A stretch of 64,000 nucleotides of DNA from Balneolales bacterium ANBcel1 (GTDB taxonomy: Bacteria; Bacteroidota; Rhodothermia; Balneolales; Natronogracilivirgulaceae), in contig JARULB010000005.1 in the NCBI GenBank assembly GCA_029688905.1, positions 310,001 through 374,000 on the forward strand. Reading direction: 5' to 3'. The position numbers were made by a program, and so were the translations under genes. Shown piece after piece: positions 11,231 through 59,017 of the stretch. The notes beneath the pieces were generated by a model, which saw nothing but the letters and a program-made list of their open reading frames with translations, was not told the DNA's origin and did not search any database. The stretch's first letter is position 1; every line of letters begins with the position of its first letter.

Positions 11231-13246
11231 TTAGCGGATCGGAACAAGCCTGGCCACCCATCCACCGCCGCTTGCCATCGAAACAGATATCCGGTCGGTG
11301 TTTGTGACAAGCTTCACCTCACGCACATAATCACGCGCGTCCCGGTTTGCATTCACTCCGTCCCGGAAAATCACCGCTTCGTACTCACCCTCCGGCAGAA
11401 ACGAGAAATCAAGCGTCAGCTCCTTGCCATCCCAGTTGGTCATTGCTCCGACATACCAGTTGTCTCCGTTACGGCGGGCAATAGCGGCATACTCGCCAAT
11501 CTTTCCGGCAAGCGGAACCGTTTCGTCAAACACCGTGGGAATGGATGTGATGAAATCCACGCTTTCCTGTTCGGCTCTGTAGGCGCTTGGGTTATCGGCG
11601 AGCATCGCCAGCGGTGACTCGTACATCACATACATCGCCAGCTGATGGCATCGCGTGCCCTGGGTCATCGGCATCGAGTGAACCGGCCGGAAGTTATGAC
11701 GATTCGCGTTGCGCATACCGCCGGGGGTATAATCCATCGGACCCGCCAGCATTCGGGTGAACGGAATTGCCACATTGTTAGATGTAAGATCCTCATCCTC
11801 CCATTTATGATACTCCAGGCCCCGCACTCCTTCATAGGTGATGGCATTCGGCCAGGTACGCTGCAGGCCGGTGGGGGGATACGTCCCGTGGTAGTTCACC
11901 AGCATCTCATACTTAGCCGCCTTTCGGGCTGCGCGATAATGGAAGTTGATGACGAACTGGTCGTTCCGGTCCATAAAGTCGATCTTGAATCCCCTGACGC
12001 CCATCCCGGCATAAAGGGCAAAGATTTCCTCCATGTCCCGGTGCACCGGAACCCATCCGGCCCAGAGCAATACATCCACATTATTTGCCTTTCCATGAGC
12101 GATAATCGCTTCGAGATCGATCTCCGGAATCGTCTCCATCAAATTATTGCTCTCAATGGACCACCCTTCGTCCAGAAGGATGTATGCGATGCCGTTCTCG
12201 GCGGCGAAATCGATGTAATGCTTGTACGTTTCGGTGTTGATACCGGCTTCAAAATCCACTCCGGAGATGTTCCAGTCGTTCCACCAGTCCCAGGCAAGCT
12301 GTCCTTCGCGGATCCACGAATCGTCGTCAATACGTGAAGGAGATGCAAGTCTGAATACCATGTCATTGTCCAGCAGCTCGGCATCCTCATTGGCCACGAC
12401 GACGGCACGCCACGGGAAAACGCGATCCCCGTCGGTTCGGGCAATATAATTGGCGCGTTTGGTGGAAAAGAGCTGGAGATTATTGTAGCCGCTTTGCAGC
12501 TCCTCCAGTGAGTGACGCGCAAAATGAGCGGAAAGTCCATACTCATGCGTTCTGCTTGGGACGATGAACATGCCCGGATAATCCTCGACATCGACCTCCA
12601 AAAGTGCGGCCCGTTTGTCGCCAACTTCAATCACCAGTGGAAGGTGGGACAACCTTTCCGGATCAAATTCCGTCAATGGAAACGGATTATAAAAACTCTC
12701 GAAGGAGCTTGAGTAGCGTACTCCTTCCGGAGTCTCCAGGTAGGGGATATGTCCGACATGGTTTTCCGCGAAGTTGAAAGCCACATCCTCCCACCGGATG
12801 GTCAGTTCTCCGTCATGTGAAGTCACAAACCGGTAGGCGGCGCCATCGTCATAGGCGCGAAAAATGAGTCCGAAGTCTCCTTCAAACGAAAGTGCCAATT
12901 CGTTGAAACGGTCGGGCACCTCGCTTTTTTTGTACAGGCGGGTGTGGATGACTTCGTCCGCCGAGCGCTCGGACACGTCGGTAAGTACCGGATTCGCGCC
13001 AAATGTCGTGCCGTCATCCAGATGCATGGCGATGGACGATTCGTCCAGAATAAGATCCCCGTCGTGGGTGATGGTCCAGCGGATATCGGCTCCGATCGTG
13101 ACTGTCGCGACCAGGAGTCCGTCTGGTGATCTCAGCACAACCTCGTTATCAACCATACCGGCTGTTGCCGCTTCGCTGATTTGCAGCGTCAGTAAACTGA
13201 CGGTAAACAGCAAGAACCCTGATCGTACCCTCTTCAAAATTTTCAT
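11231..13246 (-). CDS. GH97 glycosidase, probably retaining alpha-galactosidase type
   Basis: Secreted 671-residue GH97 enzyme. The start at 13246 has GAGGG 8 nt upstream and gives a signal peptide (FLLFTVSLLTLQISEAATA). It has an N-terminal beta-sandwich (~30-290), a TIM barrel (~300-560, LAWDWWNDWNISG) and a C-terminal beta domain. Asp423 in GVRGFKIDFMDRNDQ sits where retaining GH97 enzymes have the nucleophile, and Glu472 in TYEGVRG is the acid/base candidate. Inverting SusB-type alpha-glucosidases lack the Asp, so an alpha-galactosidase-like retaining enzyme is favoured. It lies 122 bp downstream of the big secreted protein gene on the same strand and converges on lacZ; together they could trim alpha- and beta-galactosyl side chains. 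Confidence 0.9.
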   Translation of the reverse strand: MKILKRVRSGFLLFTVSLLTLQISEAATAGMVDNEVVLRSPDGLLVATVTIGADIRWTITHDGDLILDESSIAMHLDDGTTFGANPVLTDVSERSADEVIHTRLYKKSEVPDRFNELALSFEGDFGLIFRAYDDGAAYRFVTSHDGELTIRWEDVAFNFAENHVGHIPYLETPEGVRYSSSFESFYNPFPLTEFDPERLSHLPLVIEVGDKRAALLEVDVEDYPGMFIVPSRTHEYGLSAHFARHSLEELQSGYNNLQLFSTKRANYIARTDGDRVFPWRAVVVANEDAELLDNDMVFRLASPSRIDDDSWIREGQLAWDWWNDWNISGVDFEAGINTETYKHYIDFAAENGIAYILLDEGWSIESNNLMETIPEIDLEAIIAHGKANNVDVLLWAGWVPVHRDMEEIFALYAGMGVRGFKIDFMDRNDQFVINFHYRAARKAAKYEMLVNYHGTYPPTGLQRTWPNAITYEGVRGLEYHKWEDEDLTSNNVAIPFTRMLAGPMDYTPGGMRNANRHNFRPVHSMPMTQGTRCHQLAMYVMYESPLAMLADNPSAYRAEQESVDFITSIPTVFDETVPLAGKIGEYAAIARRNGDNWYVGAMTNWDGKELTLDFSFLPEGEYEAVIFRDGVNANRDARDYVREVKLVTNTDRISVSMASGGGWVARLVPIR

Positions 13247-13368
13247 ACCAACCCTCTGTTTTATAATGTTTCGCCCCTGTGCATGGACCATTGCAACGAG
13301 TTAACGATAACATACACGATTGCGGGGAAAAAGCCAATCCCGCAGTGTCGAGAGAGCTGTTTTTGCGA

Positions 13369-16300
13369 TCACGGAGGGGTCGGCAGGTACCATGGCCCGG
13401 ATACCGGGATGTTCTCAAACGTCCCGGTGAATGTCGCTCTGGTGTATTCATCGGGATGCAAATCCAGCCGTTCGGCTTCCGAATAGTTGTACATCGGCAT
13501 TGCGAAGCTGCCGCTGACAACGCCGATTACTTCACCATCCAGAACCTCTTCGGTCCGCTCGATGGTCAGGGTATATCGGGAATAGTCATCAACATCTCTG
13601 CTGGTCGGAACCCATTGATCCCCCGACGAGTCGTAGAAATCGGGAATCGACCAGTTTTCGGATCCGAAATCCGGGGCCCTTACCCATGGCAGTTCCCGGA
13701 CCCACTCGCCCGAATCGCCGATGGTGGTGGAAGCATAAAGCACGATATATCCTCCCGGACCCTGACCGGGCCAATCGCCGAAGATATTGCTCACGTTCAT
13801 GAGGCTGCTTGCCAGATAATCGGCTCCGACATCGCCGGTCTCATAGGTGAAATAGGGCGACGAAACGGTCAGCTCTCCGCAGGACTCCCTGACAAAAAAC
13901 GAGACCTCGTCGGTGAGCGGTTCATCGAAATCGGGATGATTATAGGCGACGGCGATGCTCACACGTCCCACGCCGGACGGTGTGTAGAGTCCATCCTGGG
14001 AGAGCGAACCGGGTCCGCTGAGCGCGTAATCCAGCTCGGAAAACGGGATTTGCTCATCATCGCCAAGATTGGCCGTGAACTGGATATCGTCCTGATCCGG
14101 TACGATGCAACCCGGCCGGGGCGAAAGATATAAAAATGACTCCGGTTCATCCTCTTCCTCCTCACTTAGAATGATCGCCGCGTGGTCTCGTCGCACCGGA
14201 TCGTTTCCGGCGCGTGGCCCGTCGCGTGTGCCGCTTTCCGCGAAAATCATGTAGGAGCCTTCCGACTCCTCCGCGAACGCGAGGAAGAGCATCTCATTAT
14301 CGGGTCCGAATGGCTCAAATTCCACCGGATCCGGACCTTCCAGCACTTCATAGTACCAGTTGACGGATTCGTCATGAGCATTTTCCACCGAGGCTGCCAG
14401 TGTGATTTCGTACTGGAACATGGATTCGGGTCCCATTCGGATGATGTTGGTCGCCATGCCCTCCATTCCGAGAATTTCTATCTCCACATCGATTGCGCGC
14501 ACCTCCAGATCTTCCCGGGCGCTGGAGTGGTTGTCCTGGAATGCGCCCGGAGCGGTTTGCACCCACAACTCCGCCTCGCCGGCAGCCAGAGGCTCATAGC
14601 CTCTGTCGTCATCGATAAAACCGAACGGTGGCGTTTCCGCCTGTGAAACTATTTCCCAGGTGAAATAGTCTTCATCGGAGGCCGGGTCGATCGTTAACGG
14701 GCCGTAAATCGTGGCCGGGTAATTAATCGGACCGCTTTCGGCACTCAGACCCAATCCCGCAGTCGCGAAGCCCTGAACAAGTTCGGTCGTCTCCCCGACC
14801 AGCCCCTGGATCGCGTCGGTTTGACGGGCGATGCTTCCCACTTTTTCACCGACTTTGCCCAGACCGGGTATGGCACCGATAGCATCCGGCCAGGTCAGTG
14901 TAAAGCCGTTTGCCTCTGCCTGCAGCGAGGCCTCCCATTCACCGGTATCTTCGGAGTCTTCATAAAACGATGCCGGATCCACCGTCAGCTGGATATCCCG
15001 CAATTTGGACGGGTACTGGTCTTCGCAAATACCCAGGATCAAATCCATCAGAAACAGATTGAGCGCAGCCACTCCTGCGGCCGGGGCACTGGGTGGAACC
15101 AGAAATGCCACGCCGGTAAGTACCAGTCCGCCGCCAACCCGTGACGCCTGAGCAGCTCCGGTATTTGCATTGGCACACCGGGCCTGGGCGCTCATGTAGT
15201 TACTCAATGCCTGGGCGGATGACAAAGAGACGTGTTCAAGTCCGAACGATTGCTGAAAATCACTATCCGGTAATCGTTTGCCGGTTTCGGCTTCGGCCAG
15301 TTGCTCCAGTTCGGGCAGCTCCGAGAGTTCTTCAATCAAGGCGGCGAAGTCGGCGGCGTAGCCGGATGCCGTCAAAGCCGCTTCCATCAACTCCATGGCC
15401 TCTTCATCCGTATCGGCGGCAATCGGCGCGTCCCCGTTGATAATGGCGCGGATATTATTGGAAAAGCCTTCGCCTTCCAGCATGTGAAAGCCGGCGGCGA
15501 TGGGTAGCACATCGGGAGTGAGGGTGGCCGGATCGGTACTCAGCAGTTCGGCTTTGGTATACCCGATGGCTGCGGCGCGTGCAAGCAGCATATCCTCCAG
15601 GTCATCGGCGATGGCGGTCAGGGTTCCGGGCGCCGGCGCCATGGGCTCGATTTCGAAGGGAATCCCTTCGCAGACAACGGACTCATCCTCGCTGACGATA
15701 ACCAGATGCGCCGCACCGCCCTCCATGAGGTTCACAGGATGCAGCGGAACGGCAACCCGAGCCTCGCCGCCATCACCGATGCGTTCGATGAATGCGGGAT
15801 GGCGGGCATCCTCGTCCGGCTCATCGGTCGTCGCGTCGTAAAACCAGGCCATTGGTTCCTGGCCGAACTCTTCGCCCAGGCCTTCAAGTTCGATATATCG
15901 GGCCGGGACCGAACCACTTTCCGCCGGCTGCAGATTGGCGCACGCGACCGCAGGATCCGCTCCGGCCGGTTGCAGTACGATGTCGTACTCATGGGTACCG
16001 GGTGTATCAATGTGAACCGAATACTCTTCGAATCGCCCGTCACCATGCACTTTCAGCGTCACTGATCCGGTATCAAACAGTGAGAATGGCTGCTTGATGC
16101 CGGTCCGGACCGGTGCCTCATCCCGGACGGAGGGAGGTGCGGATCCGTGGACAACGGCCAGCCGCGCACCGCTTCCCGAAAGCGAGGTAACCTGGCGTGT
16201 CGCGCTAAAGCCATTTCCCCGAACCCGCACCAGATAGCTGCCGGCACTGGTCGGCATGCCGATGTGCACGGTATGCCGGCCGGGGTTCATTCGTTCTTCG

Positions 16301-30172: not shown

Positions 30173-30332
30173 ATCCCGGCTGTCGAACCCGAACCCGGTC
30201 GCCCCTCCTGTTTCAGGTCCCCAATGAACTATTTCCTGCGCATGCTCATTGATATTGGTGTACCGTTTACATAAAATCCGGTGCCGCAGCAATCAGAATC
30301 GCGTTTTTTTATCATGGAAAACCCAATTATTT

Positions 30333-31562
30333 ATGAATACCAATAAAGCAGTAGTCCTTCTGGGATGGAGTGCCCAGGCCATTGAAAGTGCACAAAAACT
30401 GGACAAACCCTATGTCGTTGTGAGTTTTGAAGAGTTTGAACCCTATGCGAAGGAAAACGGAATTCCTTTTGTAGCATGGGACTTCAATCAGTGGGGTGAC
30501 CAGTCCAATTCCCTGATATTACGCGAAAAGCTGGCGCCTTTTAACCCGAATGTAGCCATCCCGCTGTACGAGGAAACCGTGGAGTGGGCCGGAGCCCTTA
30601 ATACGTTGTACAGGGATGACCCCAGGGTGATGAACCGTGCGTTCCTGTTTCGAAACAAGGCGATGATGAAGCGCAAGGCCCTGCTCGCCGGACTCCGGGT
30701 CGGACTTTTTGAGGAGGTCCACAACAAGCAGGATGTCCACAAGTTCATGGACCGCCTGAATGAAGCCAATCTGGTACTCAAGGGTGAGGAAGATGCCTGG
30801 GTGCATCTGAAGCCGTTCAGCGCCGCCGGAACCGTCGGACACAAACTGCTGCGCAATCACGATCAGATCGACGAAAAGGTGATCGAAAAAGACTTTCCGT
30901 GTCTGGTCGAGAGCCACCTCCCCGGCCAGGAGTTTTCCTGCGAAGCGTTCATCCACAATGGGAAAATCCGATTTATGAATATTACCGAGTATATTCGCCT
31001 CGGCTATTCCAACTACATTCCCGCCGGACCCGATCTGCAGTCGAAGCGTCCCCAAATTCGCGAGGTGATGCAAAAACTGGTGGATGCATTCGGAATTGAG
31101 TACGGCGTCATCCACCCGGAGTGGTTCCTGACCGAAGACAACACCCTCAGTTTCGGGGAAGTTGCCTGCCGAATTCCCGGAGGGCACATTTTTGAACTCA
31201 TCAGCAAAGCCTACGGTTTCGACGCCATCCAGGCCATGATTCTTTGCAGTGACCCGGACACCACCGAAGAGCAGGTTGAAGCGTTTTTCCCATCCGATGA
31301 AGAACCCGCCCAACAGTACGCCGGAAGCCTGATGGTGTACCCGAAACCCGGCAAAGTCTCCCGCCTGATCATTCCGGAAGAGCTCAAAGAGGATCCCTAT
31401 TTTGAAAACCATACGCTTACCGAACCAATGGAGCACAAAGTATCGGACCAGCGCGAAGGCTTTGGCAATCACTACGGAACCATCTTCTTCCGCGGTGAAG
31501 ATCCCGGACGAATGGCAGAGCTGCTCAGACACTACGAAAATGTCGATTTTTACCAGGGTTGA
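30333..31562 (+). CDS. ATP-grasp ligase (L-amino-acid-ligase/carnosine-synthase-like)
   Basis: 409-residue cytoplasmic enzyme expected to activate a carboxylate as acyl-phosphate and join it to an amine. The start MNTNKAVVLLGW gives the pre-ATP-grasp Rossmann-like domain (1-95). ATP-grasp proper spans ~100-330: FRNKAMMKRKALLAGLRVG, an adenine/phosphate segment around LKPFSAAGTVG, CEAFIHNGK, and the metal site HPEWFLTEDNTLSFGEVACR followed by IPGG (Glu in HPEW and in GEVACR). The C-terminal ~80 residues resemble the cap of amino-acid ligases. Two bases separate its stop from the next ATG, so it is coupled to the 681-residue protein, its likely functional partner. Substrate unknown. Confidence 0.88.
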   Translation: MNTNKAVVLLGWSAQAIESAQKLDKPYVVVSFEEFEPYAKENGIPFVAWDFNQWGDQSNSLILREKLAPFNPNVAIPLYEETVEWAGALNTLYRDDPRVMNRAFLFRNKAMMKRKALLAGLRVGLFEEVHNKQDVHKFMDRLNEANLVLKGEEDAWVHLKPFSAAGTVGHKLLRNHDQIDEKVIEKDFPCLVESHLPGQEFSCEAFIHNGKIRFMNITEYIRLGYSNYIPAGPDLQSKRPQIREVMQKLVDAFGIEYGVIHPEWFLTEDNTLSFGEVACRIPGGHIFELISKAYGFDAIQAMILCSDPDTTEEQVEAFFPSDEEPAQQYAGSLMVYPKPGKVSRLIIPEELKEDPYFENHTLTEPMEHKVSDQREGFGNHYGTIFFRGEDPGRMAELLRHYENVDFYQG

Positions 31563-31564
31563 TT

Positions 31565-33610
31565 ATGGCTGACACAATCGCCGGACACATCCGCCATAAT
31601 TTTATCGAACAACTGGAACAGCTTAAAACCGCCGGAGTGCTTACCCGGCAGGACCAGGCCCGAAAACTGGCCAGCAGCCTCGATGCCATCATGGACAAGG
31701 AAGGAGGCATGGCGCTGATTTACGATCACATCGGCGATATTGTAGAGGCCGGCTTTTTTGATGATACCCAGTGGAAGGATCCCGATGTCCTCAATTATTC
31801 GCTGGTGGGAGGCACCCTTAAAGCGGGTGGGATGAACACCGTTTATGAGGTTCTCAGCGAGTTGCGAATTCTTGCAATAGCTCGGGGTCGCCTGGAAAGT
31901 CCGGCAATGACGGCCGAAGCGGCCCGCCGGTTCCTCGAAGAACTGGTGGTTGTAAATCTCGACCTGCTGTTCCCGGATGCCTCCGAGGAGCTTCGCAATG
32001 TGGATGAGGCCACCCGCAGAAAAATCGAGAATCTGTTTGCCTGGCTGAAACACGATTTCATTCAGTGGGACCGGATCAGCCGGCGGCTGGCAAAAGAGCT
32101 GGAACAGATTTGCAGCCAGAGGCCCATTGTAACCGACCGTGCCAAAAGCATCATCCGAACCGTCAGGGAACAGATGGCGGACCAGATTACAACTGACCGC
32201 ATGACGGCCGGGCCCGGTACGAAACCATCTTCTGAAGACGATGCCGAAGGCCGGGCCAACGGGCTCCCGCTTTATATTGATGCCCTGTACGCCCCGTCGC
32301 CGGAGTCGGTCAACCGAACACCTGAAGAGTACGAAGCACATATTGCGAATGCCCCGGAACAGCTGCTCGGCGAGGAATGCGACGCCCTCTCATTCACCCT
32401 GCGGCAAACCGGGCTTTCATCTGCCTTCCACGCCCTGATGCTCAAACGGGTGAGCGACATGCCGGAACTGATCGGCAGGCTGCTCGGACTAAACGACTAC
32501 GGACTGGCCGAGCTGAAAGAACATCACGCATCCATCACCCGGTTCATCTCCTTCGCATGCCGTCCCGATACCACCCGTTTCGTGTACGGACTTGCCGCCA
32601 TGCTGGAACGCAACCTCCTTTCGCGCCAGCCGGTGATGACCGGCCTGGAAAAACTGACCGATATTTCGCTCCACCCCGATGTTGCCGCCCACATCTCCGC
32701 ATCCCGTCCCGACAGCCGCTGCACGCCGCTTCAGCACCTGTTCGCTGACACCATCTGCATGATGGGTCAGCCGCTCGGAGTAGGCCAGGGCTGGAACCCG
32801 ACCTGCCAGTCGGCGCGCGGCATGAGTCTGTGGAGCCGGCACGCACCCGGCAAACTGCTCGACCTGATTCACACCGCCGCATCTTCCAACGATCTTGAAA
32901 TGCGGTTTGAAGGGCAGCTGCTCAAGGCATCCGAGCTCCCGGAAGGTTTGGCCAAGGACTTCGACTACAACCTTGACGCGGTGTCGATCGCGCTGGTACC
33001 GCACCTCGACCGCATCTATTTCGAGATGATGCGCCGGGCCTCCGGGCGGGGAGAGGATCCCCACAAGTGGGTCAACCCCGCCATGTACGGACAATGGATA
33101 CACACCGGGTTCCGAACTCCCTATAATTACCTGTACAACACCATCAGCCGGTACGACGCTTTTTTGAGACTCTTCTACGCTACCCATCACCCCGAATACA
33201 ACGGCGGACACGATCTCGCCTACCCCAACCCCGTCGGCATTTTTCTGACGGCGGCCAATGGTAAACTGCTCGGCTTCCACGCCGTCTCCCTGCTGCGGGT
33301 TGCGCGGCACGAGGAGGATTACCGGATCTATTTTCTGAATCCCAACAACGAAGGGCGTCAAAAGTGGCAGTCCGACATCCAGCCCACCGTCGCCGGCTAT
33401 GGAGAACAGCCGGGTGAATCGTCTCTGCCCTTCTATCAGTTTGCCTCCCGCCTGTACGCCTTTCACTACAACCCCGCCGACAGTGATGCATCTGACCGGA
33501 TCCCCGCCGAAGAAATTGAGCGGGTCACAAAAATTGCCAAAAACAGCTGGGGCGCTTCCTACACCTGGCAGGATGTGCCCGAGCCCATAGCCTCACCGGG
33601 AATCACGTAG
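31565..33610 (+). CDS. Uncharacterised protein with papain-like Q-C-H-N signature
   Basis: 681 residues, no signal peptide or membrane helix; I do not recognise a named family. The ATG at 31565, with AGGG 7 nt upstream, is two bases after the ATP-grasp stop. Residues 1-330 look helical. From ~395 the sequence shows GQGWNPTCQSARGMSLW: Gln408 lies six residues before Cys414, the spacing of papain Gln19-Cys25. A His follows at 572 in LLGFHAVSLL and an Asn at 592 in YRIYFLNPNNEG, the usual order and rough spacing of a papain-like triad. A cysteine peptidase, amidase or transglutaminase-like activity is inferred. A likely job is to cleave or transfer the amide made by the adjacent ATP-grasp enzyme. 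Confidence 0.8.
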   Translation: MADTIAGHIRHNFIEQLEQLKTAGVLTRQDQARKLASSLDAIMDKEGGMALIYDHIGDIVEAGFFDDTQWKDPDVLNYSLVGGTLKAGGMNTVYEVLSELRILAIARGRLESPAMTAEAARRFLEELVVVNLDLLFPDASEELRNVDEATRRKIENLFAWLKHDFIQWDRISRRLAKELEQICSQRPIVTDRAKSIIRTVREQMADQITTDRMTAGPGTKPSSEDDAEGRANGLPLYIDALYAPSPESVNRTPEEYEAHIANAPEQLLGEECDALSFTLRQTGLSSAFHALMLKRVSDMPELIGRLLGLNDYGLAELKEHHASITRFISFACRPDTTRFVYGLAAMLERNLLSRQPVMTGLEKLTDISLHPDVAAHISASRPDSRCTPLQHLFADTICMMGQPLGVGQGWNPTCQSARGMSLWSRHAPGKLLDLIHTAASSNDLEMRFEGQLLKASELPEGLAKDFDYNLDAVSIALVPHLDRIYFEMMRRASGRGEDPHKWVNPAMYGQWIHTGFRTPYNYLYNTISRYDAFLRLFYATHHPEYNGGHDLAYPNPVGIFLTAANGKLLGFHAVSLLRVARHEEDYRIYFLNPNNEGRQKWQSDIQPTVAGYGEQPGESSLPFYQFASRLYAFHYNPADSDASDRIPAEEIERVTKIAKNSWGASYTWQDVPEPIASPGIT

Positions 33611-33811
33611 CATGTTTTGGCGATGATGGTTACCATTCGAAATCCAGGTATTCCCTTTCGGCGCCCGATGCTTCCTGAATAAACATCCCGGGCATGGAAA
33701 AGCCCGTATTTGCCACGACGATTCCGTGCACGGCAATCCTCACATTGCAACCCTCATGTTACAAACCGGATTTCATCAGCCGCACACATTAGAAGATATA
33801 CTCAGTAATTT

Positions 33812-34972
33812 ATGGTCAAACACTCTTCCCGCATATTTCTGAGCCAGTCGGCCCTCAAGCAGAACTTCAGCTTTATCAGGGAGAAAATCGGTCCGCATCC
33901 GGTGATATCATCTGTGGTGAAGGCAAACGCATTCGGCCACGGAATAGCCACCTTCGTGCCGATGGCCGAAAAATGCGGCATCCGACACTTTTCGGTGGCT
34001 TCCAGCTACGAGGCCTGGAAAGTCCGCGAGGCGCTCACCCACGACGAAAGCCGGATCATGATCATGGGCATCCTCTATCCCGAAGATTTGCCGTGGGTCA
34101 TCGAAAACGGGGTGGAGTTTTTTGTCTTTGATTTCGAGCAGCTGGAGAATGCCCGGGCTGCCGCAGAAGAGGTGGGCAGGCAAGCCGTCATCCATTTGGA
34201 GCTGGAGACCGGAGGAAACCGCACCGGTCTGCCACCCGAAGAACTCGAACAGGCAATTCGATTTCTCAAAAAACACAAGAAGCTGCTGCGGTTTGAAGGC
34301 CTTTGTACGCACTTTGCCGGCATTGAATCGCTGGCCAATCAATTCCGGATTCAGCGGCAACTCAAAACATTCAACGACATGTACAAGCAGGTTCGGCGAA
34401 TGCGATACCTGCCCAACATCCGGCATACCGCCTGCTCGGCGGCCGCGCTGGCCTTTCCGGAGACGGTGATGGACCTGGTCAGGGTCGGCACCGCCCAGTT
34501 CGGCCTGTGGCCCAGTCCGGATATCTACAACATGCATCTGCTGCAGACCGGCAAGGTGAAGGACACCCCCCTGAAACGGGTAATGACCTGGAAAACCGAC
34601 GTCATGCACGTGAAAAAAGTGAAGCGTGATCAGTTCGTAGGGTACGGAACCAGTTATCAGGCACCCAGGGATATGACGATCGCCGTGATCCCAATCGGTT
34701 ACTCAAACGGCTATCCCAAGGCGTTATCGAACCGCGGGCACGTGCTCATCCACGGAAAAAAAGCACCGGTAACCGGCCTTATAAACATGAATGTGTTTAT
34801 GGTGGATGTCAGTCAAATTCCGGATGTGGCTGTCGGGGATGATGTTATTCTGATCGGCAAGCAGAAAAACAACTCCATAACCATCAAGTCTTTTACAGAG
34901 ATCACCGATTCCATCAACAATGAACTGGTGAGTCGGCTTCCTACCGCGATCCCCCGCAGAACGGTCAGGTAA
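33812..34972 (+). CDS. alr: Alanine-racemase-like PLP enzyme with atypical active site
   Basis: 386-residue fold-type III PLP enzyme. PLP-binding Lys37 in SVVKANAFGHG and catalytic Tyr278 in VGYGTSYQ are present, as are the Arg in ETGGNRTGL (Arg137) and RVGTAQFGLWP. Two usual positions differ. The Lys that is carbamylated in typical alanine racemases (HLKxDTGxxR) is Glu130 (HLELETGGNR), and the conserved CMD near the end is NMN (325-327). Both ring sites for racemisation remain, so it is probably active, but a substrate other than alanine is plausible. It follows the ATP-grasp/papain-like pair with a 201-bp gap on the same strand and faces the amidoligase operon. Confidence 0.9.
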   Translation: MVKHSSRIFLSQSALKQNFSFIREKIGPHPVISSVVKANAFGHGIATFVPMAEKCGIRHFSVASSYEAWKVREALTHDESRIMIMGILYPEDLPWVIENGVEFFVFDFEQLENARAAAEEVGRQAVIHLELETGGNRTGLPPEELEQAIRFLKKHKKLLRFEGLCTHFAGIESLANQFRIQRQLKTFNDMYKQVRRMRYLPNIRHTACSAAALAFPETVMDLVRVGTAQFGLWPSPDIYNMHLLQTGKVKDTPLKRVMTWKTDVMHVKKVKRDQFVGYGTSYQAPRDMTIAVIPIGYSNGYPKALSNRGHVLIHGKKAPVTGLINMNVFMVDVSQIPDVAVGDDVILIGKQKNNSITIKSFTEITDSINNELVSRLPTAIPRRTVR

Positions 34973-35080
34973 TGGAAACGAGTCATGATGATCTACTGAT
35001 CTGCCGGTCGGAAGCGGCTCCATCCACTCTCTGCGGAACGGTCCAGGTGAGGGAGGTGATTTTGGGCCTGGCGGACCGGA

Positions 35081-36580
35081 TCACGTGTTTTTTGCAAAGT
35101 ATTCAGCAACCCCGGCCCAGTCGGGCCAACTGCCCGCCGGTTCGGCGGGTTTTTCGACAATTTGTGCGGCGCCGTACCAGCCCATCCACTCTTGCCTGAC
35201 CGATTCATCGAGGTGGTCGACCCGGAAGTCCGCTCCACCGCTTCCGGAAGCTACCGTCACCATCACCGAGCAGAGTTGTTTCCTGCGCTGGAACCAGTTG
35301 GCCAGAACCGACAGCGACTGTACTCGGCGCCGATGGAACACCACGGTTGTCCGCGCCAGACGGCGAAACCGCATGAACCCCTGCTCCCGGTCAAATCCTG
35401 CCGCGGCATCCCGGTAGCGGATGTAGCCAATCAGAGCCGTTACGGCAAAGATTACGGGTATCAGCCAGAATAGCGAAAAATACCACGCCACCGCCGATGC
35501 CACTATCAGCGCCGGCACCACCGTTTTTATCTGATACCGCAGGAATGCGCGCCCCGGTGGCCGGACCCCCGGCAGCTGCACATCATACTCCGGCAGCATG
35601 TCCTGCATAAAACGATTCAGCTCGGACTTCCGGATCAGCGGAAATATAACCGTCGTCTTCCCGCCTTCATCCCCGAAACCCGCGTTTTCCACATATACCA
35701 TGGCATACCCGAACGGCTGACGCAAAATACCCTCGACTACGCGTACCGCCTGAATTCTGTGATAGGGTATGGTGACCTGCTTTTTTTCAAACAGGCCGCG
35801 CCGGAACTGCAGCTCCCGGCCATTGCGGGTAAGCGTAAATCCGGAAAATCGCAGGAGTGTGCCAAATACGGAGAGCAGCCATGCGGCCAGCACTGCCAAT
35901 AATACGAGTGTGATCCAGAATTCGGCACTGGTGCCACCGGCATACTGTTCAATAAAAGCGATCATCTGATCCTCTGAAATCACCTGATGGGCCTGTGACA
36001 TCGCGGTGCCCACAATCGAAAGTGCCACACCGAAGCTTCCGGCGGTACTTGCCGCAATTAGCAGTCGCCGGCGCGTGAGCCGGTAAACGGGCCATTCGGC
36101 CTCCCCGGATGCGGCTTCCACATCCCGTGCCTCGACCTCCAGCGCCCGCTCAATGGCCCGGGCTTCACTGCGGGAAATGGCGCTGATTTCGGCCTCGGGC
36201 GCAGCTCCCCCGGCGGTGAGCACATTCAGGCGAACCAGGCCGAACAGCCGCTGAACCGGTCCGGAGCTGATGTCGATGGCCTGAATCCGGTCACGGGGCA
36301 CATAGCGTTTTTTTCGCACAAAAAGTCCCTGTTCCACACGCAACTCATTCTCCTCGACACGCCAGGTAAACCGAAGCCATCCGACAAAACCGACAATCAG
36401 CAAAACGGTGAGCAGCAGCAGTATGCTCCACCAGGTGAACAGCGGCGAATTGCCTCCCTGTCCGGCAAAAAACACCAGGATTATCGGGATGATCATTTCG
36501 CGCAGGGATCTCATCACAAACGTGAAGATGGCCACCGGATGCTGACGCCTGGGTTTGCTGATATCAAGCCCGGTTATCAC
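35081..36580 (-). CDS. Bacterial PH-domain (bPH2) membrane protein, YdbT-like
   Basis: 499-residue inner-membrane protein with three bPH2 units, each next to a pair of membrane helices: unit 1 (LRVEQGLFVRKKRYVPRDRI), unit 2 (LQFRRGLFEKKQVTIPYHRI) and a weaker unit 3 (FRRLARTTVVFHRRRVQSLS). This is the YdbT plan. YdbS/YdbT pairs occur widely; their molecular role is not settled, with cell-envelope functions and antimicrobial peptide resistance suggested. The start overlaps the YdbS-like stop by 4 bp. It is the last gene of the amidoligase, C26, YdbS, YdbT operon and converges on the alr gene, 108 bp apart. Confidence 0.9.
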   Translation of the reverse strand: MITGLDISKPRRQHPVAIFTFVMRSLREMIIPIILVFFAGQGGNSPLFTWWSILLLLTVLLIVGFVGWLRFTWRVEENELRVEQGLFVRKKRYVPRDRIQAIDISSGPVQRLFGLVRLNVLTAGGAAPEAEISAISRSEARAIERALEVEARDVEAASGEAEWPVYRLTRRRLLIAASTAGSFGVALSIVGTAMSQAHQVISEDQMIAFIEQYAGGTSAEFWITLVLLAVLAAWLLSVFGTLLRFSGFTLTRNGRELQFRRGLFEKKQVTIPYHRIQAVRVVEGILRQPFGYAMVYVENAGFGDEGGKTTVIFPLIRKSELNRFMQDMLPEYDVQLPGVRPPGRAFLRYQIKTVVPALIVASAVAWYFSLFWLIPVIFAVTALIGYIRYRDAAAGFDREQGFMRFRRLARTTVVFHRRRVQSLSVLANWFQRRKQLCSVMVTVASGSGGADFRVDHLDESVRQEWMGWYGAAQIVEKPAEPAGSWPDWAGVAEYFAKNT

Positions 36581-37296
36581 AAATCCTCCCTTGCCACCCT
36601 GGCATATTCCGAAATGGTATTCCGCAGGTTGTCGGCAATCGGTTCGGAAAGTGCCGGTATTTCATGGGTATCGCCGGCGGTGGTAATCGTTACGGAAGCC
36701 AGTCCGAATTGCCGGTAGACCGGACCCTGGCGGGTGTCCACGTGCTGGACCCGCTTGATGGGAATCAGGGTGCGGGTGACGATGAAGAGTCCGCGCTGAA
36801 GATCGATTTCATTATGATCCACCTGGTAGCGCCACCGTTTCCACCGGATGTACGGGATGATGGTCGCCTCAAGAACCGTATAGACAAAAAACAGAATTCC
36901 CAGCACATAAGAGGGCCACACCGGCCATCCCGTGTCGGCCATCGCAATGGCTCCGTACCCCAGCGGAATGAGCCAGTAGGCAAGTGAGCCAAGGGATCCT
37001 GCGATACGCCAGGCATTAATCGCCTCCCTCGAAAGATAAAGGCGACCCTGTTCGTCGCGCAGTTCCGGCTCCGGCACCGCGGGCGGCATAGTGCCGGGCT
37101 TCACTTCAGGTTCGGATTCGCGTTCTGGCTTGGGTTCGGATTCTGTTCCCGCTCCCGCCTCATTTGGTCCGCCTGCATTCCGCGTTTCCGGCGGCCCGGA
37201 CTGATCTGCCAATGGAGGCTGCGGGCGCTCCGAATCCCCGGAACCTTTAGGATTTGTGGAAAACCGATGCCCCTCGCTATTCATATGATCATTCAT
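36577..37296 (-). CDS. Bacterial PH-domain (bPH2) membrane protein, YdbS-like
   Basis: 239 residues. Residues 1-85 are a Pro/Glu/Ser-rich, probably disordered cytoplasmic tail with repeated acidic motifs (ESEPKPERESEPEVKPG), much longer than in ordinary YdbS. Two membrane helices (SLAYWLIPLGYGAIAM; YVLGILFFVYTVLEATIIPY) are followed by one bPH2 domain (IDLQRGLFIVTRTLIPIKRV, VDTRQGPVYRQFGLASVTIT). It overlaps both neighbours by 4 bp (C26 upstream, YdbT-like downstream), so all three are translationally coupled and a YdbS-YdbT complex is likely. Confidence 0.9.
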   Translation of the reverse strand: MNDHMNSEGHRFSTNPKGSGDSERPQPPLADQSGPPETRNAGGPNEAGAGTESEPKPERESEPEVKPGTMPPAVPEPELRDEQGRLYLSREAINAWRIAGSLGSLAYWLIPLGYGAIAMADTGWPVWPSYVLGILFFVYTVLEATIIPYIRWKRWRYQVDHNEIDLQRGLFIVTRTLIPIKRVQHVDTRQGPVYRQFGLASVTITTAGDTHEIPALSEPIADNLRNTISEYARVAREDL

Positions 37297-38132
37297 GTAT
37301 CATTTCCTGCCGGTGTTCGATCGCTGTTATCACGGTGCAAAATAGCACTTTGAACCAGCTCATCAAACAACCGCCTTTGTGACGGAACCTGCGGAAGGTA
37401 TTCGGGATGCCACTGCACGCCGATCATAAAGGGATAGGTGCGGTGCTCCACGGCCTGCGCCACGCCATCAAGTTCGCGAGCAACTACGTGAATTCCCTCT
37501 CCCGGCTGCTTGACCGCCTGGTTATGGAGGCTGTTGACTCTGGTGACATCCTTGCCGATGATGGCATGCAGCCGGCTTTCGGGATCCAGTGTTACCGGTT
37601 TTCGGGGGTAGATGGTGGAGACATTGGGACGTTCGCGATAGTAATTGGCCAGATCCTGATACAATGTCCCTTTGTGGTAGACATTCAAAAGCTGGGCTCC
37701 CCGGCAAATCCCCAAAATCGGTATCTGTTTCTGCACCGCCATGTCGATAAGTTTCCATTCAAGGTCATCGCGCTGCTTGTCAACACCCAGTGCACCGGCG
37801 CTGAACGCCTTGCGGACGAGCAGAAAAAACGGTGCCAGGATCAGGGTGATCCAGCGTTGCCCTTTGGGCTCGTTGGGATCCGGTGTGGTACGAATATTCT
37901 TGAGATCCGTGACCAGGTCTTCATACCGGCCCGGATCGATATCGGCGCCGCCGCCCAATACAAGCGCGTGAGGATGGCCGCCCGGGGTTCGGCTGCGCAC
38001 TTTCTCAAAAGAGCGGGGTGTAATACGTCTGGCTCGTGCGCCGCTTCTGCGCAGGGCGTAACGTGTCGCCAGCCAGGCGGCGCCCCCTCCCTTATCGGGT
38101 CCGGAAACCCACACTATCGGTTTTCGACTCAT
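37293..38132 (-). CDS. Peptidase C26 / class I glutamine amidotransferase-like gamma-glutamyl hydrolase
   Basis: 279-residue cytoplasmic hydrolase of the PuuD/gamma-glutamyl-GABA hydrolase type. Nucleophile Cys143 in ILGICRGAQLLN; His242 and Glu244 in IGVQWHPEYLP complete the triad; HALVLGGGADIDPGRY and VNSLHNQAVKQPGEG are family landmarks. Such enzymes cut gamma-glutamyl amides. A ~30-residue insert (WITLILAPFFLLVRKAFSAG, 94-113) is unusually hydrophobic and may touch the membrane. The gene follows the amidoligase by 77 bp and overlaps the YdbS-like gene by 4 bp. Pairing of amidoligase with such hydrolases has been described for predicted peptide or cell-wall modification systems, where one makes and the other removes an amide. 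Confidence 0.93.
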   Translation of the reverse strand: MSRKPIVWVSGPDKGGGAAWLATRYALRRSGARARRITPRSFEKVRSRTPGGHPHALVLGGGADIDPGRYEDLVTDLKNIRTTPDPNEPKGQRWITLILAPFFLLVRKAFSAGALGVDKQRDDLEWKLIDMAVQKQIPILGICRGAQLLNVYHKGTLYQDLANYYRERPNVSTIYPRKPVTLDPESRLHAIIGKDVTRVNSLHNQAVKQPGEGIHVVARELDGVAQAVEHRTYPFMIGVQWHPEYLPQVPSQRRLFDELVQSAILHRDNSDRTPAGNDT

Positions 38133-38209
38133 GATGTTTCAATAAACTGTTTCAATGATAATGGCTCCAAGGTGCCACTTTTGATGATGTTATGTGGAGA
38201 ATGGCGCGG

Positions 38210-39256
38210 TCAGTCCATAAAAAGAGCACGCATCTCGCGCATCCACTCTTCGGTGAGTGTTTTGATCGGATGGCGTTTTCGCTTCAGGAACAGATCCTGC
38301 AGACTTTTCAGTTTCTCACCCGACTCGGCCAGCCGCTCCACTTCCACCCACACATTCCACTCACGGGTGAATGTCCATTCCGGGTCATCGATGGAGCTGT
38401 TCGGAAGGCGATAATGGAAGGTAGGCCGGGGGCGGATCAGCTCATCCCCGAGTTTCTCCCGAACGCGCTCCTCGTCGTGCCATGCGAACAGGGGCAGCAG
38501 GTCGAGCGGACGATTTCGTGTGGGATTGTCTTTCAGATAATCATCGATCAACGTTTCAAGATCGGGATTGTAGCCGGAGTCGAGTACCTTCTCGACATAC
38601 TTGTCGGGAAACGGGTCAATGAACGGCGTGATTTCCCTCATCACATCGATTTCATGAGAAAGGCGGAGCCACTCGTACAACAGCAGGAACGCCTGGAAAT
38701 ATCGCCGAATGACCGCCGGGTCGCCTGATGGAGTTTCAGGATTCAGATGCAGGCCGAAGGCGTTGAAGGGAGAGGCGGATGTCCCTTTTCCGCGCATCCG
38801 GTAAATGGCTTTGCGCAGCTCTTCCAGATCCGCAATTTTGTCGAACGGCACCGGTGGAAACGAAACCTCGTAGGGAACAAACGGCTCTGCGGTGGTGGCC
38901 AGCAGCTTTTCGACCCGTTTCTGCCAGCGCGCATCGATCTTCACTCCGATCTCATCGCCAAGTTTCCCGAAATAGTCGGTTTTTGCCATTTTCTGGAGCA
39001 GAACCCAGTCCAGTTCCACGGTAAAATCGCCAAGCCGGGTATCCCTGACCTTGATTTTGTACTCACTTTCCGCATCTGCGGTTCCCCCGTAGCACATGCG
39101 CACCAGAGAAACGATCCGGTCGATGGACAGTCCGGAAAATTCGATTTCGAGGCCCATCTTGCGTGGCTCGCCCTCCATGTTCTCCATAAGGGGCGGAAAC
39201 TGCACGCTCTCCGTCCCTCGTTTTTTCCTGATTACGCCGGATATATTTTTGCTCAT
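38210..39256 (-). CDS. Putative amidoligase (Amidoligase_2-like)
   Basis: 348-residue enzyme of the glutamine-synthetase-like amidoligase family. The N-terminal motif MGLEIEFSGL (residues 34-43) matches the G-x-E-I/L-E metal-binding strand. Later landmarks are FTVELDWVLL, FNAFGLHLNPETPSGDP with the family His/Asn/Pro pattern, and RPTFHYRLPNSSID. The usual length is ~300-350. Members are predicted to form an amide between a carboxyl and an amine on peptides or small molecules with ATP. It is the first gene of a four-gene operon with C26 hydrolase and two bPH2 proteins, and stands divergent from lpdA. The true substrate is unknown; a cell-wall or gamma-glutamyl compound is the natural guess. 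Confidence 0.85.
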   Translation of the reverse strand: MSKNISGVIRKKRGTESVQFPPLMENMEGEPRKMGLEIEFSGLSIDRIVSLVRMCYGGTADAESEYKIKVRDTRLGDFTVELDWVLLQKMAKTDYFGKLGDEIGVKIDARWQKRVEKLLATTAEPFVPYEVSFPPVPFDKIADLEELRKAIYRMRGKGTSASPFNAFGLHLNPETPSGDPAVIRRYFQAFLLLYEWLRLSHEIDVMREITPFIDPFPDKYVEKVLDSGYNPDLETLIDDYLKDNPTRNRPLDLLPLFAWHDEERVREKLGDELIRPRPTFHYRLPNSSIDDPEWTFTREWNVWVEVERLAESGEKLKSLQDLFLKRKRHPIKTLTEEWMREMRALFMD

Positions 39257-55411: not shown

Positions 55412-57448
55412 TCAAATAAAACGGCGTGGCACTTCTCTGTCCCAGATTTTGCTGAACACTCGGCGCCCGTTTTCATAGGCATCCAGGGTGGCGTGAATCC
55501 TGAAGACGCTGCTATCACAGGTAAGTGTCGTGCGGGTGATGGTTTCGACATCCCACTCCCCGCGTTTCAGACGCCGCACCGCTTTCACTTCGCCGTTAAC
55601 GGACTCGAACTTGTCCAGCAGATATCGGTACCACTCCTCGGTATTCCGGGTGATTTCCGTACCGGTGTCCTCCAGCCGATTGGTTCCTTCATTGTCAATT
55701 ACATGCAGTGTGGACTCCTCGGAGGCCAGGTCACGGGTGATTACCCAGTTGTGCTCGGCCGGTTTGAGGGGCGTAGTGACGAACCCTTTTACCGCCTCCG
55801 CTTCCTCGAAATCGCTCATCTGATCATCGAACGGGGAAGCATTCTCACGTACAGGAAGCTCCAGAGTGCTTTTATCCGGGTGGATGGTGAGTCGCGCCGG
55901 CTCGGGTGACGGCCAGGCCAGCGGCCAGTAGGAGGTGGATATCGCGACCCGCAGCCGGTTGCCTTCCGGAAGGTGCTGGGCGATGTCGTTAAGCTCGATG
56001 GTCACTTTCACTTTTTCACCCGGCTCCAGGAACTCGGGGTGCTCATGGCTGTTGCGGTGGCAGAGGTTGAGCAGCCCGTAGGTCACGCGCGTCGCTTTGT
56101 CGTCCCTGGCAATATCAGAGAGCCGCACGGCGATCATGGCCACCGGTTTGTTCGCCGACAGCTCCAGGTGCAGTTTCGGAGCTCCTATGATCATCAGGTC
56201 CTTCCTGAGCGGTTCGCTGTCGAACACCAGGGAGCCGCCGTCCTCCTCGCGCTGGTCATAGGGCAGGTCCGGGCCTTTACTGTAGGAGCACCATTTGCCG
56301 GCAAAAAGGCCGACACTCAGCGGCGACTGTATAGTGAGCGGACCGTTGGAGGCAATCCGCTCCTCATCGGGTTTGAGTATGCGGGCGTTGTCCAGCGGCC
56401 ACTGGGTCGGGATGATATTGGGAGACGGCCAGGAGGGTTCGGCCACCCAGTAACCCGGGCGTTTCTTGTAAACGGCTCGGGGCTTGACACTCTCCTGCAT
56501 CCACACCCGCATGTCCGGCTCCTCTTCCACGCCGGTATCCTCGTCTTTGAGCCAGCGGTCCCACCACCGCAGGCACTCCTGCAGAAATCCGATTTGCGGT
56601 CCAGGGGAGGCTTCGTGGGGATAGATATGGCTCCACGGTCCGACCAGCCCCTTGCAGGTCACATTAAGGTTCTGCACCAGGCGAAAAACCGCGTTGGAGT
56701 AGCCATCCGCCCAGCCGCTCACGGCAAAAACCGGTGCTTTGATGGCGTTGAAATCTTCGCATACCGATCCGTGCTTCCAGTAGTCGTCGCGCTGCTGATG
56801 GCGCATCCAGGTGTCGACCCACAAGCCGCTTCCCTCGAGCCGCTCCATCCACATATCCCGCCATTCTTCGCCGACAATCTCGGGATCGGGCGGAAGGGAG
56901 TTGAAGGCGAACATGGTGGAGGCCCAGGAGAGGTTGTCGTTTAGCAGGCACCCGCCCATGTAATGGACGTCATCGGCGTACCGGTCGTCGGTGGAGCAGA
57001 GACTGATGACCGCCTTGAGCTGCGGGGGCTGCATCGCGGCGATCTGGAGTCCGTTGAATCCGCCCCATGAGATGCCGATCATGCCGGCTTTTCCGTTGCA
57101 CCAGGGCTGCTGTTCCAGCCATGCCAGGATGTCGACCCCGTCGTCGAGTTCGGTTTGCAGGTATTCATCCTTGAGGACGCCCTCGGAGTCACCGCTGCCA
57201 CGCAGATCCACCCGGATGGATGCGTAACCGTGCGCGGCAAAATAGGAATGCACCTGGGTGTCGCGGGACCGCTTCAGGTCACGTTTCCGGTAGGGAATAT
57301 ATTCCAGGATGGCCGGAACGGGGTTCTTCTCGGCATCCTCGGGCATCCAGATGCGGGCCGACAGGCGGCAACCGTCCCGCATGGGGATCCAGGTGTGCTC
57401 AATGGCTGTGATCGGAACCGGTAGTGACGAAGTCTTTACAGTTTTCAT
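55412..57448 (-). CDS. CocE/NonD-family serine hydrolase (Xaa-Pro dipeptidyl-peptidase S15-like)
   Basis: 678 residues; the start at 57448 (MKTVKTSSLPVPITAIEHTW) removes 14 doubtful residues. No signal peptide. Alpha/beta-hydrolase core with oxyanion region PYRKRD and nucleophile Ser127 in GMIGISWGGFNG; acid Asp probably in SGWADGYSNA and His in GPWSHIYPHEASPG. The C-terminal PepX_C jelly roll (~350-560) is followed by a ~120-residue extra beta domain (HNWVITRDLASEESTLHVID). Relatives are Xaa-Pro dipeptidyl-peptidases, cocaine esterase or alpha-amino-ester hydrolases. It is divergent from an ATP-grasp gene, 273 bp apart, suggesting ligase and hydrolase act on a shared amide. Confidence 0.92.
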   Translation of the reverse strand: MKTVKTSSLPVPITAIEHTWIPMRDGCRLSARIWMPEDAEKNPVPAILEYIPYRKRDLKRSRDTQVHSYFAAHGYASIRVDLRGSGDSEGVLKDEYLQTELDDGVDILAWLEQQPWCNGKAGMIGISWGGFNGLQIAAMQPPQLKAVISLCSTDDRYADDVHYMGGCLLNDNLSWASTMFAFNSLPPDPEIVGEEWRDMWMERLEGSGLWVDTWMRHQQRDDYWKHGSVCEDFNAIKAPVFAVSGWADGYSNAVFRLVQNLNVTCKGLVGPWSHIYPHEASPGPQIGFLQECLRWWDRWLKDEDTGVEEEPDMRVWMQESVKPRAVYKKRPGYWVAEPSWPSPNIIPTQWPLDNARILKPDEERIASNGPLTIQSPLSVGLFAGKWCSYSKGPDLPYDQREEDGGSLVFDSEPLRKDLMIIGAPKLHLELSANKPVAMIAVRLSDIARDDKATRVTYGLLNLCHRNSHEHPEFLEPGEKVKVTIELNDIAQHLPEGNRLRVAISTSYWPLAWPSPEPARLTIHPDKSTLELPVRENASPFDDQMSDFEEAEAVKGFVTTPLKPAEHNWVITRDLASEESTLHVIDNEGTNRLEDTGTEITRNTEEWYRYLLDKFESVNGEVKAVRRLKRGEWDVETITRTTLTCDSSVFRIHATLDAYENGRRVFSKIWDREVPRRFI

Positions 57449-57597
57449 TTTGCACGGATAGTTAACGATTTGTACACGTAGCTGATGCAATGGGATAGTA
57501 CCCGTTCGAGCCGCCTTTCGCCATCCTTGTGTAAAAAAAATAGTGGAGCCACTGTCCCGTTACCATGGAGCAGCACCCGGATTCGTAAAAAAAAATG

Positions 57598-57721: not shown

Positions 57722-59017
57722 ATGAGTAAAAAACAAGTTTTCATCATTGGGCTGGATGATTTCAACCTGAAAATGTTGAAGGCCCTGCCGGAAGCGAAAG
57801 AGTGTGACTTCCATGCGGCACTGGATATCTCCGAAATCAGGGATGTCAAGGAGTACGACATGGAAAAGCTGGTTAACCTGTGTTTCGAGCGGATTGACAG
57901 GCATGGCAAGATCGATGCGGTCGCCTCGTACTACGACTTTCCCGGCACGGTTCTGGTCCCGGTGATTGCGGAGAAGTACGGTTTGCCGGGCCCGACCCTG
58001 GAGAGTATCCTGAAATGTGAACACAAGTTCTGGAGCCGGATGGAGCAACAGAAGGTGATACCCGATCACATCCCCATGTTCCGGGCGTTTGACCCCTTTG
58101 ACGACCATGCGTATGAGAAGCTGGAGATGATCCCGCCGTTCTGGATCAAACCCAACAAATCGTTCCGGTCATTTCTGGCGTATCGCATCAGCAGCGAGTC
58201 CCACTTCTACGAGAACACCAAAACCATCCAGAAACATATTCATTTTATGCTGGAGCCGTTCCAGAAATTGATGCAGATGTATAACATTCCCGAAGAGGTA
58301 TCGGAAATGAAAGAGAGCTGTATCGCCGAATCCATGATCTCCGGACATCAGTGCACCCTGGAAGGGTATGTGTACAACGGAAATGTCGTTTCTTATGGCG
58401 TGGTGGATTCCCTACGTGAAGAAGACCGGTCCTCATTCTCCCGTTACGAGTATCCATCCGTGCTGCCACAGGAAATACAGTTCCGCATGGCTGATGTCAC
58501 ACGCCGTACCATCCAGCAGATCGGCATGGACAACTCACCGTTCAATGTCGAGTTCTTCTACAACCAGACCGCCGACGAGGTCTACCTGCTGGAGATCAAC
58601 CCGCGTATCTCGCAGGCGCACACGGATATTTTCGAGAAAGTGCACGGGATTTCTCACCACGCCATCATGCTGAACCTGGCACTGGGACGTAAGCCCAAAA
58701 CATTATACTATAACGGTGACTTCAACAAGGCGGCCCATTTCATGCTCCGGACCTTCGAAAGCGGGCGCATCAATAAGGTGCCGACCAAAAACGAAATCAA
58801 CATCCTGAAAAAATTCATCCCCGGCCTGGAAGTGAAAATTCCGGTCAGGGAAGGTGTCCACACCAGTGAAATGCAAGGACAGGACAGCTACAGCTTCGAG
58901 CTGGCCAACATCTTCATCGGAGGGCGCGACCAGGCGGAGCTGGTGGAAAAATACAGCAAGGTATGCGACGGACTCACGTTTGAAATTGATTACGATGAAG
59001 AGGTGCACCTGCACTAA
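57722..59017 (+). CDS. ATP-grasp ligase, second copy
   Basis: 431-residue cytoplasmic ATP-grasp enzyme. N-terminal Rossmann-like domain (1-95, KQVFIIGLDDFNLKMLKALP), ATP-grasp core (~100-310) with CEHKFWSRMEQQKVIPDHIP, PPFWIKPNKSFRSFLAYRIS (nucleotide-binding Lys), CIAESMISGHQCTLEGYVYN and metal site EVYLLEINPRISQAHTDIF. The C-terminal ~110 residues resemble the cap domain of amino-acid ligases (FELANIFIGGRDQAELVEKY). It keeps the standard EINPR motif, unlike the 30333-31562 copy (GEVACR). Divergent from the S15 hydrolase gene. Product unknown; a dipeptide or amino-acid amide is likely. Confidence 0.9.
   Translation: MSKKQVFIIGLDDFNLKMLKALPEAKECDFHAALDISEIRDVKEYDMEKLVNLCFERIDRHGKIDAVASYYDFPGTVLVPVIAEKYGLPGPTLESILKCEHKFWSRMEQQKVIPDHIPMFRAFDPFDDHAYEKLEMIPPFWIKPNKSFRSFLAYRISSESHFYENTKTIQKHIHFMLEPFQKLMQMYNIPEEVSEMKESCIAESMISGHQCTLEGYVYNGNVVSYGVVDSLREEDRSSFSRYEYPSVLPQEIQFRMADVTRRTIQQIGMDNSPFNVEFFYNQTADEVYLLEINPRISQAHTDIFEKVHGISHHAIMLNLALGRKPKTLYYNGDFNKAAHFMLRTFESGRINKVPTKNEINILKKFIPGLEVKIPVREGVHTSEMQGQDSYSFELANIFIGGRDQAELVEKYSKVCDGLTFEIDYDEEVHLH

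Follow-up and report, generated by a model that had tools for sequence, protein, structure and literature searches.

A conserved ATP-grasp, papain-like and racemase gene cassette predicted to make a small amide with ornithine and a D-amino acid

We analyzed a window of 64,000 nucleotides from Balneolales bacterium ANBcel1 (GenBank assembly GCA_029688905.1, contig JARULB010000005.1, positions 310,001 to 374,000). At 30333-39256, the window carries seven genes in two converging blocks (Table 1), a layout given in the original prediction from the letters of the window and borne out here for every gene. The plus-strand block encodes an ATP-grasp ligase, a papain-like protein, and a racemase of the alanine racemase (Alr) family, hereafter the cassette, and the minus-strand block encodes two bPH2 membrane proteins, a C26-type peptidase, and an amidoligase. 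The papain-like gene starts 2 bp after the ATP-grasp stop, the ends of the minus-strand genes overlap or nearly touch, and the two blocks meet with 108 bp between the stops of the racemase and bPH2 genes. A promoter-like sequence precedes the cassette; with eight such sites found and 6.0 expected by chance, it is weak evidence for a promoter.

Table 1 Features of the window around the ATP-grasp, papain-like and racemase genes.
Feature	Position	Strand	Remark
Promoter-like TTGATA-17-TAAAAT	30249-30277	+	Consensus match only; 55 bp before ATP-grasp start
ATP-grasp ligase, predicted L-amino-acid-ligase type, 409 aa	30333-31562	+	Cassette gene 1
Papain-like protein, 681 aa	31565-33610	+	Cassette gene 2; matches no family
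Alanine-racemase-family pyridoxal phosphate (PLP) racemase, 386 aa, altered pocket	33812-34972	+	Cassette gene 3
Large bPH2 membrane protein, YdbT type	35081-36580	-	PF03703, three stretches; neighbour only
Small bPH2 membrane protein, YdbS type	36577-37296	-	PF03703; neighbour only
Peptidase C26 / class-I glutamine amidotransferase-like	37293-38132	-	PF07722, 132 bits; neighbour
Amidoligase_2	38210-39256	-	PF12224, 205 bits; neighbour

We scanned 85,000 species genomes by profile, found 41 loci with the papain-like protein, and inspected their flanks of up to 10 kb on each side, many of the contigs being short. In all 36 loci with enough contig, the ATP-grasp gene immediately precedes the papain-like gene, and the order ATP-grasp, papain-like, racemase on one strand is kept in 28 of the 28 loci that show all three genes, which places this block far from a chance arrangement. 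Among 148 genomes of the Algoriphagus iocasae family (Cytophagales), the papain-like and ATP-grasp profiles match an identical set of 34, in which the pair is always adjacent with a gap of 12-472 bp. Thus, the three cassette genes form a single conserved unit. The cassette is single copy and is carried by many related genomes of one clade, e.g., Algoriphagus; its hosts belong to Balneolota, Bacteroidota (Algoriphagus, Marinoscillum, Imperialibacter, Fulvivirga, Saprospirales), and Gemmatimonadota. The Gemmatimonadota copies make up a single clade nested among Balneolota in the tree, suggesting transfer, and in the six Gemmatimonadota loci for which more than 5 kb can be seen, the racemase is not next to the pair. 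No signal peptide was found in the cassette proteins by inspection. A phage origin was considered and rejected, as the cassette proteins have no PHROG match, no relatives in viral contigs, and no useful viral-fold match. The open-licence literature searched contains no description of the cassette, which is apparently undescribed so far.

The ATP-grasp protein matches PF13535 at 32.2 bits (cut-off 27). Its profile retrieves from the PDB the L-amino-acid ligase (Lal) RizA (4wd3, E 4.9e-9) first, 4dim second, and BL00235 (3vot) third; as two of these three relatives are Lals, with RizA in first place, we read the protein as ligase-type. With 11.3 bits against the BacD model NF053745 (cut-off 850), it is not a BacD orthologue. 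Lals make dipeptides (PMC6920838), and the cassette enzyme, which by sequence is most like the RizA-type members of this group, is predicted to do the same.

In 40 sequences of the papain-like protein, residues Q408, C414, H572, N592 and N594 are invariant, and the Gln-Cys spacing of 6 is that of papain Q19-C25. An AlphaFold2 model (predicted local distance difference test, pLDDT, 86.9; predicted template-modelling score 0.86) divides the protein into an all-helical N-terminal region (residues ~1-380) and a predicted papain-type catalytic domain (~400-635). VIA-align matches residues ~375-635 to calpain cores, staphopain and cathepsin B, which are the top rows, with Z up to 7.0. The label papain-like given to this protein at the outset rests on the invariant Gln-Cys-His-Asn pattern together with the predicted domain. 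Modelled alone, the helical region reaches a pLDDT of 90 and resembles no fold clearly; the rows retrieved are generic helical repeats, with a best Z of 5.8. The window protein has no match in Pfam or NCBIfam at a threshold of 0.1 and none in PADLOC or PHROG, its 40 relatives have no consistent Pfam or NCBIfam match, and none of the candidate direct sequence relatives in the PDB was convincing.

The racemase scores 288.4 bits against TIGR00492 (cut-off 168) and contains both PF01168 and PF00842. The PLP lysine K37 and the catalytic tyrosine Y278 are invariant in 34 cassette racemases, as are E130, N325 and N327, while position 378 holds a small residue. From the alignment and the known Geobacillus Alr numbering, we take these last four positions to be those of the carbamylated Lys, Cys311, Asp313 and Tyr354 of Geobacillus Alr, and an altered substrate is plausible. 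The genome of the window encodes two further alanine racemases. The early description of the enzyme as an atypical racemase is half right: the protein passes the alanine racemase cut-off and is ordinary by family, but its pocket differs and the genome has these two further enzymes. Within the same genomes, the nearest relative of the cassette racemase is Alr2, encoded in a separate operon described below, and not the MurF-Alr type.

The neighbourhoods of the cassette point to ornithine. The block argB-argD-argC-argJ lies next to it on the same strand in a Balneolales genome (L010) and in a Saprospirales metagenome-assembled genome (MAG; L045), and in a relative of the latter (L047) argC-argJ is visible before the contig ends; in L045 and L047, the ATP-grasp open reading frame starts within 15 bp of argJ. 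In the Marinoscillum-type group, argB-argD-argC-argJ (L033, L053) or argD-argC-argJ (L034, L054) follows downstream of the racemase, and in a further MAG (L050) argJ is next to the cassette. In L010, the proteins are ArgB (TIGR00761), ArgC (TIGR01850) and ArgJ (NF003802/TIGR00120) at equivalog level and an ArgD-family protein (TIGR00707, at subfamily level), all over cut-off, and ArgJ is also over cut-off in L033 and L045. ArgJ proteins of separate cassette lineages are 58-64% identical, which argues against one recent joint transfer; together with the varying position of the arg block, upstream or downstream, this indicates that the association arose more than once. The Marinoscillum-type loci have a second argD with proA close by, so that the arg set of the cassette looks dedicated. 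ArgJ is also associated with the cassette across genomes: it was found in 28 of the 34 cassette genomes vs 11 of 114 others in the Cytophagales clade (Fisher p 1e-15) and in 14 of 16 vs 40 of 101 in Balneolales (p 4e-4), values that take no account of common descent and mark a strong association rather than a probability.

All five cassette genomes tested encode one more close relative of the cassette racemase, Alr2 (357-392 bits to the window protein). In four of them it belongs to an operon, and in G300, the fifth, it is on its own and SSF-GNAT-Orr is elsewhere. This partner operon typically encodes an SSF-family Na+/solute symporter, a GNAT acetyltransferase, a protein resembling ornithine racemase (Orr-like), often an M23-type protein that looks cytosolic and has no signal peptide by inspection, an M20 amidohydrolase (DoeB2-like at 203 bits, below the cut-off of that model), and Alr2. 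In the genome of the window, it lies on another contig (C4, ~295.4-301.7 kb; locus L085), and in two genomes a gene for the ornithine aminotransferase RocD lies divergently beside it. The Orr-like gene is present in 34 of 34 cassette genomes vs 41 of 114 others in the Cytophagales clade and in 14 of 16 vs 60 of 101 in Balneolales (p 0.05); measured against ArgJ, it occurs in all 39 ArgJ genomes vs 36 of 109 others in the former and in 50 of 54 vs 24 of 63 in the latter. The operon is joined to argB-argC-argJ in one genome (G471, L091) and to argB-argD-argC-argJ in another (G299, L092), and the contig of L050 runs argJ-GNAT-Orr-SSF-ATPgrasp-papain-alr, with a weak M20 match at its end in one run. 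The main argument for a single shared pathway is that arg genes, partner operon and cassette are linked two by two in different lineages and, in one case, all three together. The partner operon is likely an uptake and breakdown locus for a D-amino-acid compound. The SSF-GNAT-Orr-like-(M23)-M20-Alr2 operon as such (L085, L086, L087, L090-L102) is found in Balneolales and Cytophagales, in about half of the sampled genomes, and occurs also where the cassette is absent.

Further D-amino-acid enzyme families lie beside cassettes. In two soda-lake Gemmatimonadota whose cassettes lack the racemase, a DAO-family flavin adenine dinucleotide oxidase with an N-terminal RRSF twin-arginine-like motif is encoded next to or near the pair, at differing positions (L019, 207-1340 +; L024, 5722-6846 +), and a gene of the D-Ser-dehydratase family stands beside the cassette in L012. 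These families support a D-amino-acid product.

On balance, the cassette at 30333-34972 would serve to make, in the cytosol, a small amide with ornithine and a D-amino acid, most likely a dipeptide, plain or modified; we hold this reading from sequence to be somewhat better than even. As a plausible mechanism, ArgB, ArgD, ArgC and ArgJ, which are known families with observed linkage and co-occurrence, would convert glutamate to ornithine, and the Orr-like and Alr-type racemases, whose substrates we infer, may supply D-ornithine and/or D-alanine or D-serine. The RizA-like ATP-grasp enzyme, as its fold and family suggest, would activate one amino acid and join it to a second, giving an ornithine-containing dipeptide, and the papain-like enzyme may trim or hydrolyse, transfer, modify or cyclise the amide through its putative Cys-His-Asn center. 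The partner operon, with its symporter, GNAT, Orr-like, M23, M20 and Alr2 proteins, would import the compound and dismantle it, breakdown feeding ornithine aminotransferase where RocD is adjacent; genomes with the operon and no cassette would then be scavengers. The D-amino-acid-containing amide proposed at the outset is thus still the best reading, given the RizA-like ligase, the racemase, and the linkage to ornithine synthesis and the Orr-like gene. The gamma-glutamyl form of that proposal is not sustained, as the cassette gives no indication of glutamyl chemistry and points instead to ornithine, and nothing found ties the product to the envelope: on inspection the cassette proteins have no signal peptide, the partner operon is one of Na+ symporter and hydrolases, and bPH2 genes are not near the cassette elsewhere.

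For the physiological role, a compatible solute or reserve metabolite is our guess. Many hosts come from hypersaline soda lakes (sample names CSSed, T1Sed and T3Sed), which hold 70-400 g/L salt (PMC6146748). In L041, an MscS-type mechanosensitive channel is encoded directly after the cassette on the same strand (13185-14102 +), and Ion_trans genes lie a few genes from it in Marinoscillum (L033, 19798-20673 -) and Balneolales (L008, 14708-15619 +). Other hosts are marine genera. Saline hosts and channel genes near cassettes together favor, circumstantially, a compatible solute. The most far-reaching version, that the cassette, argBDCJ and the SSF-GNAT-Orr-M20-Alr2 operon form a complete undescribed pathway for the making, import and breakdown of a D-ornithine dipeptide compatible solute in marine, hypersaline and soda-lake Bacteroidota and Balneolota and soda-lake Gemmatimonadota, with a new papain-like enzyme family, is a tentative proposal to which we give clearly less than even weight.

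Several observations weigh against an ornithine dipeptide, in addition to the neglect of common descent in the association values. Three Gemmatimonadota genomes searched contain the pair without either Alr form, so that the racemase cannot be a strict requirement. ArgJ has a part in arginine synthesis as well, and it was undetected in 6 of the 34 and 2 of the 16 cassette genomes, the latter two being 88%-complete MAGs. Most cassette genomes, that of the window included, have the arg genes and the partner operon away from the cassette. The Orr-like proteins score 273 and 332 bits where the cut-off of NF040742 is 480. The similarity to the papain fold is moderate (Z 7), and Foldseek gives no match with E <0.001; as Foldseek alone is not significant, the fold assignment rests on residue pattern and structure together.

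A secreted dipeptide antibiotic, toxin or siderophore would be in keeping with the known Lals, which act in the rhizocticin, bacilysin and phaseolotoxin clusters (PMC6920838), and with a patchy distribution that, with Gemmatimonadota nested in Balneolota, suggests horizontal spread. However, the cassette has no recurring neighbour that encodes an exporter, a non-ribosomal peptide synthetase or a resistance protein; the partner that does recur is an SSF-family Na+ symporter with hydrolases, and a cassette that is single copy and shared by many related genomes of a clade such as Algoriphagus also speaks against this product, which we consider unlikely. The same low weight goes to a role accessory to arginine and ornithine metabolism, e.g., as an ornithine sink or arginine route with no dedicated new peptide. 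It would account for linkage and co-occurrence being with argBDCJ and for RocD beside the partner operon, but no arginine route that we know of calls for a Lal-type ligase, a papain-like enzyme or two types of racemase, and the second argD with proA near the Marinoscillum-type loci speaks for a dedicated arg set. As a role of the cassette, the modification of peptidoglycan precursors by ornithine or D-amino acids is suggested by ATP-grasp, racemase and M23-type peptidase families being known in cell-wall chemistry. We consider it very unlikely, because all the proteins appear cytosolic by inspection, including the M23-type protein of the partner operon, and the cassette has no recurring neighbour of the mur, ddl or cross-bridge kind.

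The original prediction joined both blocks of the window into one system with an envelope-linked gamma-glutamyl or isopeptide product. Their convergence in the window favors this, as does the presence of the amidoligase in all four cassette-bearing Balneolales of a 296-genome sample, with cassette and amidoligase 26 kb apart in one of them (G211). However, in none of the 41 loci, with their flanks of up to 10 kb and often short contigs, does a gene for an amidoligase, a C26 peptidase or a bPH2 protein lie close to the cassette. In the other two of the three further Balneolales cassette genomes (G104 and G227), the two blocks lie on different contigs. Amidoligase_2 occurs in 28 of the 296 sampled genomes of the phylum and in 26 of the 42 sampled Balneolales, in both cases mostly without the cassette, and in the short flanks examined no bPH2 gene was seen beside amidoligase-C26 in other genomes. 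The synteny comparison thus leaves the blocks unlinked in related genomes, their joint location is not conserved, and no other genome examined joins them. We accordingly reject the seven-gene unit and regard one common system as highly improbable; the four minus-strand genes are neighbours with no relation to the cassette. The amidoligase and C26 theme invoked for the second block does hold in itself: of the 27 loci where the amidoligase match is strong, the window included, 26 have C26 adjoining the amidoligase. This adjacency of Amidoligase_2 and C26 is conserved across Balneolales (L057-L082) and is separate from, and independent of, the cassette. A defence system was rejected as well, there being no PADLOC match except one weak bPH2 match (E 0.0099).

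Elsewhere in the window, a 1071-aa surface-type repeat protein is encoded at 59255-62470 (-), with a 258-bp tandem repeat at 61209-61707, a GC fraction of ~0.41 and a GC skew of -0.56 against a background GC of 0.54. A second, different ATP-grasp protein (57722-59017 +; PF13535, 46.6 bits) adjoins a gene at 55412-57490 (-) whose product resembles, by eye, an S15/CocE-type hydrolase.

The cassette points to an unknown small metabolite common to major bacterial groups of saline habitats and provides a first functional context for a conserved, unnamed papain-like family. The product could be searched for directly in culturable strains of Algoriphagus, Marinoscillum and Imperialibacter and in Fodinibius roseus, and, if it is an osmolyte, D-amino-acid peptides assembled by an ATP-grasp ligase would be a new osmolyte class. 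Small gene clusters with a dipeptide ligase are already known; we know of no combination of a Lal with a papain-like partner, a racemase and a dedicated ornithine supply. The open-licence literature searched contained nothing on a combination of ATP-grasp, alanine racemase and transglutaminase-like proteins, and nothing joining Lal, ornithine and compatible solute, or D-ornithine, dipeptide and halophiles.

Compared with known systems, the amidoligase next to C26 in the second block of the window resembles the Amidoligase_2-GATase/C26 theme reportedly described by Iyer et al. in 2009; nowhere else examined is this pair linked to the cassette. The predicted domain of the papain-like protein shares with calpain core, staphopain and cathepsin B the helix start Gln-(5 residues)-Cys, the later His and Asn, and the structural alignment described above, whereas the protein as a whole has the ~380-residue all-helical N-terminal region of no clear fold match, belongs to no sequence family, is apparently cytosolic, and is obligately paired with a ligase. 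The cassette racemase matches TIGR00492 over its full length and keeps the PLP lysine and the tyrosine, like Alr, the serine racemase VanT and broad-specificity racemases, but it differs from all of these in the invariant Glu that takes the place of the carbamylated Lys, in Asn for the Asp of the CMD motif, and in the small residue at Geobacillus Tyr354. The Orr-like protein of the partner operon matches ornithine racemase Orr (NF040742) over its full length, at 332 bits and thus below the 480-bit cut-off, and stands in a different context of SSF symporter, GNAT and M20. With the Lals, i.e., RizA (rhizocticin), BL00235, BacD (bacilysin) and PSPPH_4299 (phaseolotoxin), the cassette would share a small cytosolic dipeptide ligase of ATP-grasp fold that comes with a gene set of its own. 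The PDB sequence that best matches the cassette ligase is RizA, with the active-site motif GE-A-RI-GG aligned. The cassette ligase is nevertheless distant from these Lals (E 5e-9 over partial length), and it is encoded beside a papain-like protein and a racemase, close to genes of ornithine synthesis.

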